A program made the position numbers and the translations under genes. The notes beneath the pieces were generated by a model that was not told where the DNA came from, searched no databases, and saw only the letters and a list, made by a program, of their open reading frames with translations. Below, piece after piece: positions 3,898 to 17,628 of a stretch of 31,107 bases of DNA. The stretch is from positions 1 through 31,107 of the IMG/VR virus record IMGVR_UViG_3300025816_000049; one strand, 5' to 3'. Position 1 is the first letter of the stretch. The number at the start of each line of letters is the position of its first letter. This DNA comes from a virus.

Positions 3898-4091
3898 GTA
3901 TCGCAGAAATTTTAAGTCTTCGTTTTCAATTTGAAGAAATTATTCAAAACTTTGTTATTCCTGATAACAGAAAAGCAAGTATTTTAGAAAATATCATATG
4001 GTTTAAAAAATATGGCAATAGAAAAAATAGATTTAGAACTGGTTATGATCAAGCTATGGAAATTGCTAATAAAATTTTAAAGAACATTTAA
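3894..4091 (+). CDS. small hypothetical protein, 65 aa
   Basis: ATG at 3894 overlaps the HAD gene stop. The protein is helical and basic at the C-terminus (RKNRFRTGYDQAMEIANKIL). Not recognised. It ends 10 nt before the first base-paired segment of the permuted tmRNA gene, so the tmRNA could be transcribed by readthrough from this operon. Confidence 0.7.
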   Translation: MSIAEILSLRFQFEEIIQNFVIPDNRKASILENIIWFKKYGNRKNRFRTGYDQAMEIANKILKNI

Positions 4092-4100
4092 CTTATATAT

Positions 4101-4167
4101 ACTATGTAGTTGATGATATTAACTAGATGCATACTGGACTCGGGGGCGGTACCCGACAGCTCCACCA
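4101..4167 (+). ncRNA. ssrA: permuted tmRNA: acceptor (3') piece
   Basis: The segment ends in CAGCTCC + ACCA (4157-4167), the alanine-type tmRNA acceptor end; CAGCTCC pairs with GGGGCTG at 4308-4314, which lies downstream rather than upstream. A five-pair T stem (TCGGG 4140-4144 with CCCGA 4152-4156) encloses a 7-nt loop GGCGGTA that lacks the usual TTC. Upstream bases 4102-4107 and 4118-4122 can pair with 4342-4347 and 4332-4336 of the coding piece. The 5' boundary is approximate. The order acceptor-spacer-coding piece is the circularly permuted, two-RNA tmRNA layout. Confidence 0.87.
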
Positions 4168-4182
4168 TAAGGACACTAAATA

Positions 4183-4320
4183 ATGGACTTTCATTGGATA
4201 AGTTGGACTAAAGGAGAACCCTTTCAATGGGGAGATTTTAGATACAATAACGGTAATCCATATAAAAATTACCGTATTGGTCCGTTACTTATTCGTGTCT
4301 TTTTGAGGGGGCTGAAATAG
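4183..4320 (+). CDS. 45-aa ORF inside the tmRNA intervening segment
   Basis: ATG at 4183 follows AAGGA (4169-4173) with about 9 nt spacing, and the frame runs 45 codons to TAG at 4318-4320. The product is Trp/Tyr/Phe-rich with a basic hydrophobic end (IGPLLIRVFLRGLK), not an obvious random translation. Nearly all of the 140-nt segment between the two tmRNA pieces is this ORF, and its last 13 nt are the first bases of the tmRNA coding piece. Cleavage to form the tmRNA 5' end would therefore cut this message. Not recognised. Confidence 0.5.
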   Translation: MDFHWISWTKGEPFQWGDFRYNNGNPYKNYRIGPLLIRVFLRGLK

Positions 4321-4478
4321 GATCGACAGGTGTTGACGGAAACATGGAGACTATCCCGATCTAAGCTGGGTTAACGCGAAGAACTTTACAAGTGCAAACA
4401 ATAATTGTGCTCCATCTGGTTACGCCCTAGCGGCCTAACACAGGGGGTTGGCGACTTACCTAGCAACAGAAAAGTCGT
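4308..4478 (+). ncRNA. ssrA: permuted tmRNA: coding (tag) piece
   Basis: It begins GGGGCTG followed by AAATAGGATCGACAGG, the conserved tmRNA 5' tRNA-like half. The tag frame starts at GCA 4394 and ends TAA 4436-4438, encoding ANNNCAPSGYALAA, whose YALAA end is the classic ClpXP degron. The stop lies in a hairpin region (CCCT/AGGG), as in known tmRNAs. The piece closes with a 6-bp hairpin (CGACTT 4452-4457, AAGTCG 4472-4477). Function by family knowledge: rescue of stalled ribosomes and tagging of the nascent chain, with SmpB. The 3' end is approximate. Confidence 0.92.
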
Positions 4479-4488
4479 ACTTATTTTT
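4451..4488 (+). terminator. hairpin plus T-rich run after tmRNA
   Basis: CGACTT/AAGTCG stem with a 14-nt loop is followed by TTATTTTT. It may terminate the tmRNA transcript or form the 3' end of the coding piece. The late promoter begins two bases later. Confidence 0.45.
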
Positions 4489-4489
4489 G

Positions 4490-4497
4490 TATAAATA
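4490..4497 (+). promoter_or_regulatory. T4-type late promoter
   Basis: TATAAATA, the gp55-type late promoter core, lies 25 bp before the lipoprotein start (4522) with AGGAG between. It separates the tmRNA from the late block downstream. Confidence 0.8.
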
Positions 4498-4521
4498 GTA
4501 TCGATAGACAGGAGTTTAACT

Positions 4522-5103
4522 ATGAGTAAACAACTATTGATATTGATATTATTAACACTAGCAGCATGCACATCAAAGCCTATTGTTTTGTATGCGCAAA
4601 CTGTAATAGACTCCACAACTGATAGTAAAAGCAAAACAGACTCTAAGGGTAGAACAATTGTAATTTCTCCTCCACCAAGTGCTATTTCTCCAAGTGCTGG
4701 AGGTAGTTCTCAAGATTTATGTACTGTTGGCATATCAGGTGCAGTACAAACACAAATTTTAGGTATATCAACTGGAGAAACTGTTACCGATCAGAATTGT
4801 GAAAGACTTAAAATATCAAAAACATTATATGACTTTGGAATGAAAGTTGCGGCAGTATCGGTCTTATGTCAAGACCGTAGAGTATACGATGCTATGGGAA
4901 TGGCAGGAACACCTTGTCCAATTTATGGTAAAATTGGCGAAGACGCAAAGGTTGAATGGAAAAAGCCATCAGGCAAAAAGAAAATTCCTGCAATAATTAT
5001 TCCGGAGACAAAAGCAGATGTTCAGAAAAGGCAATGGGATACTGGCAAAAGTGCTATTGGCGGTGCTCTTCTTATGCTTCTTTTGCTTGCCGCTGCCGGC
5101 TAG
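4522..5103 (+). CDS. lipoprotein, conserved in marine T4-like phages
   Basis: This 193-aa protein has a short signal peptide with lipobox LAAC (residues 13-16), predicting lipid attachment in the cell envelope. A Ser/Thr/Lys linker and a Pro/Ser stretch (ISPPPSAISPS) follow, then a conserved-looking domain (LCTVGISGAVQTQILGI ... NCERLKISKTLYDFGMKVAAVSVLCQD) with paired cysteines. The end is hydrophobic (GGALLMLLLLAAAG). From memory similar proteins recur in marine T4-like phages next to tail or envelope-interaction genes; function unknown. It has its own late promoter. Confidence 0.82.
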   Translation: MSKQLLILILLTLAACTSKPIVLYAQTVIDSTTDSKSKTDSKGRTIVISPPPSAISPSAGGSSQDLCTVGISGAVQTQILGISTGETVTDQNCERLKISKTLYDFGMKVAAVSVLCQDRRVYDAMGMAGTPCPIYGKIGEDAKVEWKKPSGKKKIPAIIIPETKADVQKRQWDTGKSAIGGALLMLLLLAAAG

Positions 5104-7018
5104 CTCTCAAGATTTAGTTTTAGAATCCACAAGTACACCAACCTCTTCTGGTGGTGCACCTACGTACGTAACAAATAATGATGGATCAATAACCACTAGT
5201 CCAGAAATTGGCGATCTTACTGATGGTACTATAACAATGGGTGCATGTGATGGTGGTTCAACACATTTAAATTTAATACCTTCGACTAGTAATACATGGG
5301 GCGGAAATGCTTTACAATGGGGAGCTTGTGCTGATAGCTTTGCATTAGGAATAGCTATAAATGAAGCTCTTTCAGATGCTGGTACTGGAATAAGTTTAGA
5401 TAAAATTCACTATCGTTGGAAATGGATAAATGGGTGTTTTAACGTAACTAAATCAGATGGTACTCAAATATATTGTGATGCTGATATATCAAGTAGACTT
5501 GATGAGAATATGAAAGCTACTGGTGAATATGCTGACCAGCTAGATACGTTAAATATTGTTGTTACTTTAACAGATGCTGCAGGAAATGTTGTAAAAACTA
5601 AAACTTATGATTATGATACATGGTATAGTTGGTATGAGGAAAATGCTCATAGTTCAAATGAAGAAGTAGAAGGTGGATCTGTATGGCAAATAGAACAAGA
5701 CTATATGGAGATATTTAATCATCTTACAGGATCTGGAACAATTTATACGCCAGCACAATTAGGTAATATTACATTTGTTACAACTGCACAAGACAATGGA
5801 CAATGGAACGGGTATTATGGTCCTGTAGTAAAAGATGGATCTATGTGGTTTACATATAGAAATAATCCTTGTGATTTAGACACTTTATATAATCCTACGT
5901 GCCCAGGCTATGCAGAAGCATATGTAGCATATCTTTATAATAAAGCTTGTGAAGCTGATACTTTATATGATTCTGGATGCCCAGGATACGATACAGCATA
6001 TCTTAATCAACAATGTAATATAGATCAGTTATATTCGCCATCTTGTCCTTTATATCAGGTTGCTTATTATAATCAACAATGTGAATTAGATAGTCAATAT
6101 GATCTGGGTTGTCCGAATTATATTGCTCCTAGCACAGAAAGCAATGTAGCAGTAACAGCCCCAGAGTCAATAGAAGAAATATTAGCAGAAACTAATATTA
6201 CATCTCAACCTATTGCTGAACTAAATGTTATTGTAGTACCAGATATTCCTATTATTCAACCAGTTATAATTCCTCAACCAGTAGTTGTAGAAGAAATTCC
6301 GGTTGTAAGTGATATTAGTACAGAATCTATAGAACAAGAAATAGCGCAAATAGAATTACAAGTGGAGGATGCGTCAAATGGACGACCTGAAACGGAAATT
6401 ATTGAATCAAATACCTCCGACTCAAATGGAGGAGATGGAGGAGGAGATTCAGGAGAAGGAGACCCTGGATCCGAGCCAGAGCCAGAGCCGCAAGAAAAAC
6501 CAACCGAGCCAGAAAAGAATGACGAATCTGAATCCGATACTGATGGAAAAAGTAAAGAATCATCCGATGATGAATCGAGCGAGTCCGAGAGTGATGACGG
6601 AGAAGAAAAAGACACTGGGGAAGATACTAGCTCTGAAGATAGTGATGAAAAGACTGAAAAAGATGAATCAGTAGATGAAAAACCAGCACCTAAAAAGCAA
6701 GATAAAAAACCTGAGCCTAGTGAAAAAGAAAAAAAAGATAGTAGAACAGAAAAGATTAAGGCCTTAGTTGCTGCTAAAATTGAAGGATTAAGAAAAAAAA
6801 TAGACAACGCAGATACAATTGAAGAGCAAATGGTAATTCAAGCACAGCTGCTAGCATTAATAGCATTTGTACCTGATTTCGATTATGGTGAAATGGAAGT
6901 ACCAGATATTTATTTCTATCCACCTAAGCCAACAGTTGATCATGAATTTTCAAGATGGTTTGTAAATGATCCTACATTCGGTGCGATGGAAGATTTACAA
7001 TATCCGAATTTAAGGTAA
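5018..7018 (+). CDS. large secreted protein with Cys-Pro repeats and acidic disordered region
   Basis: This 666-aa protein begins with a strong signal peptide (residues 1-30, ending LPASSQ). Residues about 50-280 form a domain rich in Gly, Asp and Trp. Four tandem units of about 23 residues follow (5870-6124), each with C-x5-Y-x3-CP-x-Y. Residues about 460-590 are an extremely acidic Ser/Glu/Asp/Pro segment, then a helical part and a C-terminal Tyr/Pro-rich part. Function unknown; surface or virion-associated adhesion is a guess. The signal peptide is read from the same DNA as the hydrophobic tail of the preceding lipoprotein (86-nt overlap). Confidence 0.85.
   Translation: MFRKGNGILAKVLLAVLFLCFFCLPLPASSQDLVLESTSTPTSSGGAPTYVTNNDGSITTSPEIGDLTDGTITMGACDGGSTHLNLIPSTSNTWGGNALQWGACADSFALGIAINEALSDAGTGISLDKIHYRWKWINGCFNVTKSDGTQIYCDADISSRLDENMKATGEYADQLDTLNIVVTLTDAAGNVVKTKTYDYDTWYSWYEENAHSSNEEVEGGSVWQIEQDYMEIFNHLTGSGTIYTPAQLGNITFVTTAQDNGQWNGYYGPVVKDGSMWFTYRNNPCDLDTLYNPTCPGYAEAYVAYLYNKACEADTLYDSGCPGYDTAYLNQQCNIDQLYSPSCPLYQVAYYNQQCELDSQYDLGCPNYIAPSTESNVAVTAPESIEEILAETNITSQPIAELNVIVVPDIPIIQPVIIPQPVVVEEIPVVSDISTESIEQEIAQIELQVEDASNGRPETEIIESNTSDSNGGDGGGDSGEGDPGSEPEPEPQEKPTEPEKNDESESDTDGKSKESSDDESSESESDDGEEKDTGEDTSSEDSDEKTEKDESVDEKPAPKKQDKKPEPSEKEKKDSRTEKIKALVAAKIEGLRKKIDNADTIEEQMVIQAQLLALIAFVPDFDYGEMEVPDIYFYPPKPTVDHEFSRWFVNDPTFGAMEDLQYPNLR
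5870..6124 (+). repeat. four tandem Cys-Pro coding repeats
   Basis: Four consecutive coding units of roughly 60-70 nt encode C-x5-Y-x3-CP-x-Y-x2-A-Y patterns (for example CDLDTLYNPTCPGYAEAY). The spacing of two Cys per unit suggests one disulfide per repeat outside the cytoplasm. The DNA repeats are diverged, so the array is old. Confidence 0.8.
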
Positions 7019-14517: not shown

Positions 14518-15693
14518 TTGTATTGTAGAATGCCCCACGCAGGTTTAACACTTCAACCTAACGGTGATATTGGTCTTTGTTGCGCGGCTTGGCAAAAAAT
14601 GGAATTTGGTCATATATCAAAAATCGATAGCATTAAAGAAATATGGGAAAATGATCCTAAGCTTTTAATGTTAAAGGAAGATGAACCGTATTTAGTACAG
14701 CAAGCGTGTGGTACATGTTTAAAAAAATCTAAACAAAATCTTGATTGGCAATGGGGACTTTGGAATATTCCAAAGAACGGTTCTTACAGAAAAGAAGTAG
14801 GTGAGTTAGACGGTAAGCTTAAGTTTCTAGAATTTACAACATCTAATATTTGTAATCAAACATGTATTACTTGTTCAAGCTATTTTAGTTCAAAATGGAA
14901 ATCTGTTGAACAACAGATTCTGCGTGAAGGTATTCCACTTTATGATTGGAAAACTCATGAACATGGCTTCGGCGCTTATGGTTATGATCATTATAGAATG
15001 ACTGATTCTGACATCGATAAAATTATAGAAATTCTACCAGACCTTAGAATAATTTCTATAAAAGGTGGAGAACCTTTTGCTGATAAAAATAATTTTAGAA
15101 TTTTAGAAGAGTTAAAAAAAGTAAATCCTTCTTGCATTATTAAAGTCAATAGTAATTTTTCAAAAATTCCAAAAAAATTTGTTGATGTTTTAAAAAACTT
15201 TGAATGCCAAATTACAGTGTCAACTGACGGAATTAATAAATCATACGAATATATAAGATCTACTAAGTTTAAAAATACTATTGATAACATGAAAATGTGG
15301 AAAGAAGAAATTGGAGGAAAAATAGCAATAGCTTCAATAATTAGTATTTACAATATGTACGATATAGAAGAAACATGTGATTATTGGGAAAAAAGTCCTT
15401 ATGTTGATTATTGTAATATTAGAGGATTTGTGTTTAATCCAGACTTTGTTTCACCATTATCTTTATTAAAAGAAGAGCAGCTTGATGAATGGATATATAA
15501 TACTAATCAATATATTTCTAATATGCAATCACGTAAAATTCAATACAACTTATTAAAACATGTTAATCATAAAAATATTAATGAATTAGAAAAAAATAAA
15601 GTAGTATCAAAATTTCATTCATATACTAAATTTATGAATAAATATAGAAAAATTAATATATATGATATACATCCACAATTAAAAGATATATAA
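14518..15693 (+). CDS. radical SAM protein with twitch domain
   Basis: This 391-aa protein starts at TTG 14518 after GAAAGGATATACAA. The N-terminal part (CRMPHAGLTLQPNGDIGLCC ... ACGTCLKK, C3, C21/C22, C64, C67) resembles a SPASM/twitch auxiliary cluster region placed before the core. The radical SAM cluster motif is CNQTCITC (CX3CX2C, about residues 113-120), then ISIKGGEPFADKN (the GGEP motif) and STDG. It would cleave S-adenosylmethionine to start radical chemistry. The substrate is unknown; peptide modification is the commonest role of twitch/SPASM enzymes. Confidence 0.85.
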   Translation: MYCRMPHAGLTLQPNGDIGLCCAAWQKMEFGHISKIDSIKEIWENDPKLLMLKEDEPYLVQQACGTCLKKSKQNLDWQWGLWNIPKNGSYRKEVGELDGKLKFLEFTTSNICNQTCITCSSYFSSKWKSVEQQILREGIPLYDWKTHEHGFGAYGYDHYRMTDSDIDKIIEILPDLRIISIKGGEPFADKNNFRILEELKKVNPSCIIKVNSNFSKIPKKFVDVLKNFECQITVSTDGINKSYEYIRSTKFKNTIDNMKMWKEEIGGKIAIASIISIYNMYDIEETCDYWEKSPYVDYCNIRGFVFNPDFVSPLSLLKEEQLDEWIYNTNQYISNMQSRKIQYNLLKHVNHKNINELEKNKVVSKFHSYTKFMNKYRKINIYDIHPQLKDI

Positions 15694-16487: not shown

Positions 16488-16689
16488 AAGAATAAAATTA
16501 TTTATTGCTTGGTATAAACAATTAAGGGAAAGGAGACATGAATTTCCTTTCCCTTGGTACTATCACACTTCATATAATATTTGGAATTGTTTTCGTTGGG
16601 CTGTATATAATTCAGCTAATAATGATATTAATGGAAATTACTTGTATAAATATTCCCAATGTGGCAAATATAAGAAAAGGATAAGATAG
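16480..16689 (+). CDS. small basic hypothetical protein, 69 aa
   Basis: TTG at 16480, overlapping the preceding gene, is the best available start. The protein is rich in Arg, Trp and Tyr (WYKQLRERRHEFPFPWYYHT). Not recognised. A TATAAATA sequence (16645-16652) lies inside its 3' end and appears to serve the next gene. Confidence 0.6.
   Translation: MNRRIKLFIAWYKQLRERRHEFPFPWYYHTSYNIWNCFRWAVYNSANNDINGNYLYKYSQCGKYKKRIR
16645..16652 (+). promoter_or_regulatory. T4-type late promoter before the synthetase-like gene
   Basis: TATAAATA lies 37 bp upstream of GTG 16689, inside the previous gene. The exact match and its position make a late promoter for the synthetase-tRNA pair plausible. Confidence 0.6.
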
Positions 16690-17513
16690 TGACACAGTTG
16701 ATTGAACCAAAAAAATTTACGAAAGCAGCTGACCTTTTAAGGTCATTTTTTTTAAATAGAGGCTTTCAAGAAGTACATACCCAAAATCGTTTAAGTATTT
16801 TAGCGGCGTGCGAAGATCCAGAAAATGTAGCAACATATAATTATGAAGGGCAAATATGGCCTCTTCCTCAAACTGGCCAGATGTGGTTGGAATATGAATT
16901 ATTAACTCGCCCCTCTTCGAAGGGGTTTTTTTGTATCTCAACTTCATACAGACAAGAACCAAATGCAATTCCTGGAAGACACGATACAATTTTTCCAATG
17001 TTTGAATTTGAAATGCCAGGAGACTTTGAAGATCTTAAAGTAATGGAAAGACAACTTTGTGCTTATATGGGATTTGATGATTTGACAGAAAAAACTTATG
17101 CTGAGTGGCAGGAAAATTATTCATTACCTTTAGATAAAGAGCTTACAGCTGATCATGAACTAGCAATGTACTATGAATATAAAAGCTGTATGATCACAGA
17201 TTTTCCAGAAATAACTAGTCCATTTTGGAATATGTCAAGGAATGAAGACGGAACAAGCAAAAAAATAGATGTCATTCTTGGTGGCATGGAAACAATTGGC
17301 AGCGCTGAAAGATCTACAGATGTTAAGCAAATGAGAGATACATTTCATACTATTTCAAACGGCGAATATGCCGGTCTTATTAACAAGTTATTTGGTAAAG
17401 ATCGTGTTGAAGCTGAACTTGAAAAGTTTCTTGAATTTGATTTCTTTCCAAGAGTTGGTGGTGGAATAGGTATGACCCGCATGATCAGTGCGCTCGATAC
17501 TCTTAAAAAATAA
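16689..17513 (+). CDS. free-standing class IIb aminoacyl-tRNA synthetase core (AsnRS/AspRS/asparagine-synthetase-A-like)
   Basis: This 274-aa protein starts at GTG 16689 (AAAGGATAAGATA upstream) and shows all three class II motifs: motif 1 LLRSFFLNRGFQEVHT (about 16-31), motif 2 TSYRQEP...GRHDTIFPMFEFE (85-108; R88, E90, R97, H98) and motif 3 VGGGIGMTRMISAL (256-269; R264). QTGQMWLEYELL and GGMETIGSAERSTD match the Asp/Asn/Lys subgroup. The N-terminal OB-fold anticodon-binding domain is absent. It could charge a tRNA or, like archaeal AsnRS-derived AsnA, make asparagine from aspartate and ammonia. The Asn-anticodon tRNA 6 nt downstream favours a link to asparagine either way. Confidence 0.85.
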   Translation: MTQLIEPKKFTKAADLLRSFFLNRGFQEVHTQNRLSILAACEDPENVATYNYEGQIWPLPQTGQMWLEYELLTRPSSKGFFCISTSYRQEPNAIPGRHDTIFPMFEFEMPGDFEDLKVMERQLCAYMGFDDLTEKTYAEWQENYSLPLDKELTADHELAMYYEYKSCMITDFPEITSPFWNMSRNEDGTSKKIDVILGGMETIGSAERSTDVKQMRDTFHTISNGEYAGLINKLFGKDRVEAELEKFLEFDFFPRVGGGIGMTRMISALDTLKK

Positions 17514-17519
17514 GAATAA

Positions 17520-17628
17520 TCCGAGGTGGTGGAATGGTAGACACGCCGTACTGTTTATACGGTGAATCAAATGTACCCGCAAAAGTATATTTATATTCGT
17601 GAAGGTTCGAATCCTTCCCTCGGAGCCA
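17520..17628 (+). tRNA. atypical tRNA, anticodon GUU (Asn) on a class II Leu-like scaffold
   Basis: A 109-nt tRNA with encoded CCA. Acceptor TCCGAGG/CCTCGGA with discriminator G, D stem GTG/CAC with a Leu-type loop, anticodon stem CCGTA/TACGG around CTGTTTA (anticodon GTT 17553-17555; position 37 is U), T stem GAAGG/CCTTC with TTCGAAT. The variable region is 38 nt (17563-17600) and folds into a 12-bp arm (GAAT/ATTC, then AAATGTAC/GTATATTT). Bacterial tRNA-Asn normally has a 5-nt variable loop. The U1-A72 pair, G73 and GUU are Asn-type; the body is Leu-type. Confidence 0.88.

Follow-up and report, generated by a model that had tools for sequence, protein, structure and literature searches.

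Why would a phage bring its own charging enzyme for an amino acid as common as asparagine? This question is raised by a 31,107-nucleotide stretch of viral DNA (positions 1 to 31,107 of IMG/VR record IMGVR_UViG_3300025816_000049, here called the window), in which a tRNA gene with the asparagine anticodon GUU is located directly downstream of a synthetase gene whose stop codon precedes it by 6 nt. The original prediction had described the tRNA as an Asn anticodon and acceptor end on a Leu-like class II body and had offered two readings: a Leu tRNA re-targeted to asparagine, or a tRNA seen only by a dedicated enzyme; the upstream synthetase gene went unmentioned there. We consider it probable that the tRNA and the upstream gene constitute a dedicated AsnRS-like enzyme/tRNA pair of marine T4-like phages; asparagine charging and decoding are inferred.

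The tRNA gene occupies exactly positions 17520 to 17628 (plus strand) and is intact, with an encoded CCA end. It was parsed as TCCGAGG / TG / GTGGAATGGTAGACAC / G / CCGTA CTGTTTA TACGG / 38-nt variable region / GAAGG TTCGAAT CCTTC / CCTCGGA / G / CCA. The 5' acceptor strand beginning with U1 (17520 to 17526) pairs with positions 17618 to 17624, the last of which is A72, and is followed by a Leu-type D arm (17529 to 17544), the anticodon arm (17546 to 17562, with GUU at 17553 to 17555 and U37 at 17556), the variable region (17563 to 17600), the T arm with loop TTCGAAT (17601 to 17617), and discriminator G73 with the CCA (17625 to 17628). Standard pairs are present throughout the acceptor, D, anticodon, and T stems. 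The variable region is predicted to form two helices, GAAT/ATTC of 4 bp and AAATGTAC/GTATATTT of 8 bp (one G.U), giving an arm of 12 bp in total (−6.5 kcal/mol) with a GCAA-containing loop. Parse and fold thus bore out GUU, U1-A72, G73, U37, the 38-nt region, and the 12-bp arm as initially described. A search with the Rfam tRNA model RF00005 gave 48.8 bits (E 1e-7), above its gathering threshold of 29 bits; ARAGORN made no tRNA call at 17520 to 17628. When the whole tRNA is folded by itself with no constraints, the structure of lowest energy is not a cloverleaf; the evidence for the cloverleaf is thus the match to the model, or homology, together with covariation.

Relatives that had been located via the neighboring protein, without using the anticodon for their choice, all carried GUU (82/82), and 81 of the 82 retained every acceptor, anticodon, and T-stem pair. 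U1-A72 and G73 were invariant in 128 of 128 distinct copies; acceptor pairs 2-71 to 5-68 vary in the family. In an alignment of 26 relatives, pairing holds in 99.0% of 597 cells, compared to 77.7% (sd 1.0) in shuffles and 39.6 to 61.3% with slid partners. Changes on both sides were found in 18 of 23 pairs, among them all three variable-arm pairs tested, whose covariation in relatives had been suggested as a check. Pairings were therefore kept, and the tRNA reading, which their loss in relatives would have refuted, stood. A pseudogene is ruled out by the constancy of GUU, the retained stems, and the pairing and covariation in relatives; the tRNA is intact and conserved. The variable region spans 11 to 44 nt in the family, with the 38 nt of the window near the upper end. 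A GCAA motif occurred in 55 of 65 long variable arms (3.9 expected by shuffling); as the sequences are related, this can be taken only as a hint.

Long-arm tRNAs are known for leucine, serine, bacterial tyrosine, and selenocysteine. The D-arm region (8 to 26) showed a mean similarity of 0.83 (maximum 1.00) to class II Leu tRNAs versus a mean of at most 0.55 to any of the other isotypes occurring in the loci, and the variable arm is bordered by 1 nt at its 5' and 2 nt at its 3' side, both here and in tRNA-Leu, which substantiated the Leu-like D arm and arm borders noted before. Two marks of tRNA-Leu are thus present (Leu-type D arm and variable-arm borders) and two are absent: the anticodon is GUU, and G73 is found instead of A73. 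Further differences from class II tRNA-Leu are U1-A72 instead of G1-C72 and a variable arm that is often far longer. With canonical tRNA-Asn, the phage tRNA shares GUU, U1-A72, and G73, but it is a class II tRNA with a Leu-type core and lacks both the short (class I) variable loop and A37. In bacteria, asparagine identity is set by the anticodon and G73 and leucine identity above all by A73, with Leu, Ser, and bacterial Tyr named as long-arm tRNAs (PMC9976931). When cellular genomes were searched with the family RNA model, the best-scoring matches read out were Leu tRNAs (UAA, CAA). The Leu-type body together with the invariant GUU, G73, and U1-A72 supports the idea of a re-targeted Leu tRNA, and we infer that the tRNA most likely derives from tRNA-Leu with an altered acceptor end and anticodon.

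Two protein searches of viral contigs revealed at least 595 stretches in IMG/VR encoding relatives of the enzyme, and 95 distinct phage enzymes were assembled from such searches and from annotated phages. The scans were ranked by similarity to the query, and distant members are under-sampled. Among the matches listed, the tRNA lies directly downstream of the enzyme in 84 of the 95, with a gap of usually 4 to 11 nt. A tRNA-only DNA pattern, blind to the protein, retrieved 80 loci in viral contigs; the enzyme was found upstream in all 75 with enough upstream sequence, and no tRNA without the enzyme was found among these 75 testable loci. Linkage and co-occurrence, which we required of a dedicated pair, were therefore both given. 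Flanking genes differ among loci: the largest other neighbor cluster comprises about 22 of the 95 loci; it spans the junction on the minus strand and looks like a shadow of the pair itself. As no real neighbor is comparably shared, the pair has been kept together while its surroundings changed, and a chance neighbor is excluded by the reverse linkage and the absence of equally shared neighbors. This near-complete linkage, with an Asn-type synthetase core only 6 nt upstream, favors the second initial reading, a tRNA for a dedicated enzyme, although charging is inferred. The two readings are compatible with each other, and both are supported.

The pair is also present in cultured phages. In Prochlorococcus phage isolates P-SSM7 and P-SSM5 it is annotated as 'tRNA ligase' plus tRNA-Asn, and P-SSM2 carries it by sequence. 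In the P-SSM2 record (AY939844.2, L003), the annotated tRNA-Asn (164094 to 164179) is misplaced by about 2 kb; the family model puts the tRNA at 162083 to 162168, right behind the enzyme. The 'tRNA ligase' T4-GC 194 of P-SSM2 and P-SSM7, a gene listed in a 2010 comparison of T4-like cyanophages (PMC3037559), belongs to the same protein family as the window enzyme. In the passages of that paper available to us, neither the tRNA link nor the class II tRNA nor the enzyme type is described.

The enzyme gene (16689 to 17513, plus strand) encodes a 274-aa, Asn-type class II aminoacyl-tRNA synthetase catalytic core. It matched Pfam family PF00152 (tRNA-synt_2, which covers the class II enzymes for D, K and N) at 1.1e-14 and, at 1.1e-130, phrog_29758, a PHROG family without an assigned function. 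Modeled with AlphaFold2 from 38 homologs of phage and cellular origin, the protein reached a mean pLDDT of 92.8 and a pTM of 0.90. The top structural matches of the model were AsnRS (human AsnRS with Asn-AMP, VIA, Z 26.6, rmsd 2.4, 248 residues); next came archaeal-type AspRS (Z 25.6), then asparagine synthetase A from archaea (Z 23.2) and GenX/EpmA (Z 23.1). The alignment to AsnRS is limited to the catalytic domain, e.g., residues 118 to 421 of the Thermus thermophilus enzyme, and by this structural alignment an N-terminal OB-fold anticodon-binding domain is absent. E68, R88, E90, R208, and R264 are invariant across the 38 homologs. In the amino-acid site, TGQM..E of the enzyme resembles SGQL..E of AsnRS, whereas AspRS has SPQLYKQ; the shared Arg of GSAER is retained (R208). 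This comparison drew on AsnRS and AspRS sequences from other genomes and did not include archaeal asparagine synthetase A sequences. The protein thus has a class II core, including motifs 2 and 3, together with an Asn-type amino-acid site, and the gene is under purifying selection (dN/dS about 0.1 in related-gene comparisons). Relative to canonical AsnRS, the catalytic fold and Asn-site residues are the same, but the N-terminal anticodon-binding domain is lacking and scores are far below the curated cut-offs (TIGR00457, 22.2 versus 342.6; NF003037, 22.5 versus 414). Cut-offs were likewise not reached for EpmA/GenX (TIGR00462, 16.3 versus 286.9; NF006828, 17 versus 264). A close structural match is a giant-virus protein, from Pithovirus LCPAC304, named Asp/Asn-tRNA synthetase (A0A481Z9R2; 41% identity, TMq 0.91).

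Specificity for lysine is disfavored by alignment only, and specificity for aspartate by the amino-acid-site residues. The latter bear on a two-step route, in which the tRNA is charged with Asp by the phage enzyme or by a non-discriminating host AspRS and then amidated by host GatCAB via U1-A72. That base pair, the GatCAB determinant of tRNA-Asn (PMC9976931), is indeed invariant in the family; however, at the positions of Lys-Gln in AspRS the enzyme carries residues of the AsnRS type, and GatCAB would need to accommodate the long variable arm. Nor is U1-A72 specific to the amidation route, since bacteria with a direct AsnRS usually have it in their tRNA-Asn too. We regard the two-step route as very improbable.

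A challenge to the dedicated pair comes from enzymes that lack the tRNA. The adjacent tRNA was missing for 11 of the 95 phage enzymes; in one 187-kb phage record (L223), no such tRNA was detected anywhere at E<=0.001. In another record (L091), a collapsed remnant (TCCGGGGTCCCCCGGAGCCA, 5866 to 5885) lies behind the enzyme, with both acceptor halves, G73, and CCA present and the body deleted. Cellular relatives of the enzyme were found on at least 110 genome contigs, and 73 of 80 fetched cellular homologs had no such tRNA beside the gene (for example, L112, 5001 to 5813). A paired tRNA in cells was rejected as a candidate after 23 cellular genomes had been searched with the family RNA model: matches reached 75 bits or less, and the parsed top ones were Leu tRNAs (the remaining, lower matches were not read individually). 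In a quick tree of the enzymes, those bearing the tRNA fell into one corner, with several apparent tRNA losses inside the phage clade. The exceptions, MAG contigs with the tRNA beside the enzyme (L087, L088, L089, L094, and L128), grouped with or next to phages and are probably phage contigs in bins. Because 11 of the 95 phage enzymes and nearly all cellular homologs are unaccompanied, the enzyme must have some value without the tRNA and may have a second or older role. By names assigned by eye from sequences, pyrE/F-type genes neighbored the cellular enzyme in 17 of 76 loci and pyrD-type genes in 13 of 76, hinting at a metabolic role, which itself remains unknown. In Pasteurella atlantica, pyrD, the enzyme, pyrF, and a phosphoribosyltransferase gene are adjacent (names likewise by eye). 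A phosphoribosyltransferase-like gene is also found near the enzyme in 11 phage loci (e.g., upstream in L228), and by eye it resembles the one beside the Pasteurella enzyme.

These observations would fit an enzyme that makes free asparagine, or another Asp/Asn-using synthetase, next to a tRNA charged by the host, with both serving asparagine supply. Archaeal asparagine synthetase A and EpmA, which do not charge tRNA, are core-only class IIb paralogs of the same size, likewise without an anticodon domain, and are only slightly lower in fold similarity (Z 23.2 and 23.1); unlike the phage enzyme, they have no partner tRNA. In addition, the cellular homologs share the invariant residues, have no tRNA, and are often near pyrD/E/F, and the enzyme persists alone in some phages under purifying selection. 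However, the phage tRNA never occurred without the enzyme (75/75), at a spacing of usually 4 to 11 nt; host AsnRS would not be expected to favor the odd Leu body; and the asparagine synthetase A model NF005055 scored only 21.4 bits against a cut-off of 389. We therefore consider a free synthetase quite unlikely, while acknowledging that the unaccompanied enzymes, the pyrimidine neighbors, and the closeness in fold of non-charging paralogs count against a dedicated pair, as do the U37/C37 and C33/G33 variants described below.

Given that each testable tRNA came with the enzyme, that the pocket is of Asn type, and that GUU and the acceptor identity bases are invariant, we propose charging with asparagine. 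Most likely, the 274-aa core would activate asparagine and attach it to the class II tRNA; both the charging and the amino acid are inferred. The charged tRNA would then read AAC/AAU codons in phage protein synthesis, again by inference. As the enzyme has no anticodon-binding domain, it would probably recognize the tRNA via the acceptor end (U1-A72, G73) and perhaps via the long variable arm. That GUU is invariant even though such a domain is missing suggests its preservation by the needs of ribosomal decoding. G73 should withdraw the tRNA from host LeuRS. As to origin, a pre-existing core-only enzyme was probably joined with a tRNA-Leu turned tRNA-Asn, the order of events being inferred. PylRS/tRNA-Pyl is a natural dedicated pair, comprising a small class II synthetase and an odd tRNA that only PylRS is expected to charge. 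The phage pair is similar in linking a small class II synthetase to an odd tRNA, but it would act on a sense codon with a standard amino acid (inferred), belongs to another class II subgroup, and has a long variable region where that of tRNA-Pyl is short. Whether it is a natural orthogonal pair on a sense codon, with a synthetase devoid of an anticodon-binding domain reading the acceptor end and the long variable arm (usually with a GCAA loop), we can put forward only tentatively, doubt slightly outweighing conviction.

The anticodon loop varies at positions 32, 37, and 38, and position 37 is U in 107, A in 15, and C in 6 of the 128 distinct copies. According to PMC4717488, t6A37 is found in nearly all ANN-reading tRNAs. 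In six otherwise intact class II Asn tRNAs (L037, L042, L049, L053, L232, and L058), C33 or G33 replaces U33. For an elongation tRNA, both the U37 or C37 of most copies and the C33 or G33 of these six records are unusual. One explanation is that the tRNA resists host anticodon nucleases and acts as a decoy or a replacement, recharged by the enzyme, with resistance rather than codon supply under selection. Targets of AriB, the nuclease of PARIS, are marked by U36AAU close to where it cuts, with tRNA-Asn(GUU) as a secondary target; the Asn tRNA of phage T5 helps escape, and phage tRNAs altered around the cut evade the nuclease (PMC12409363). All of this would accord with the prevalence of U37 and the variable loops. 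A37 is nevertheless kept in 15 of 128 distinct copies, and no nuclease is known from this analysis in these hosts. We judge a decoy unlikely as the main function, but it is compatible with a dedicated pair and does not exclude it. Just upstream of the pair, window positions 14518 to 15693 encode a radical SAM protein with a SPASM domain, followed by several small ORFs. Together with the odd U37 and C33/G33 variants, this neighborhood could point to aminoacyl-tRNA made for a non-ribosomal reaction. We give this hardly any credence: a radical SAM gene was present in only 4 of 95 loci, and GUU in 82 of 82 relatives despite an enzyme without an anticodon domain fits decoding.

A phage-encoded tmRNA of the permuted alphaproteobacterial type is located at 4074 to 4529 of the window (tag ANNNCAPSGYALAA predicted by ARAGORN) and suggests an alphaproteobacterial host. 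Dedicated synthetase/tRNA pairs are already known as a kind; we found no description of the present pair in the open-licence PMC literature, and what appears to be new is the class II asparagine tRNA and its connection with an AsnRS-like enzyme that consists of the core alone. The pair would represent a self-contained tRNA-charging module of marine phages, and with relatives of the enzyme in at least 595 IMG/VR stretches, the system is widespread among them. A long-arm Asn tRNA rebuilt from tRNA-Leu and served by a core-only enzyme would, if true, be a clear example of a tRNA that changed its identity, testable with one purified protein and one transcript. Should the pair prove orthogonal, it might serve as a small point of departure for expanding the genetic code. 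For the phage, an orthogonal pair would free the charging of its Asn tRNA from dependence on host synthetases and from the effects of damage to host tRNAs.
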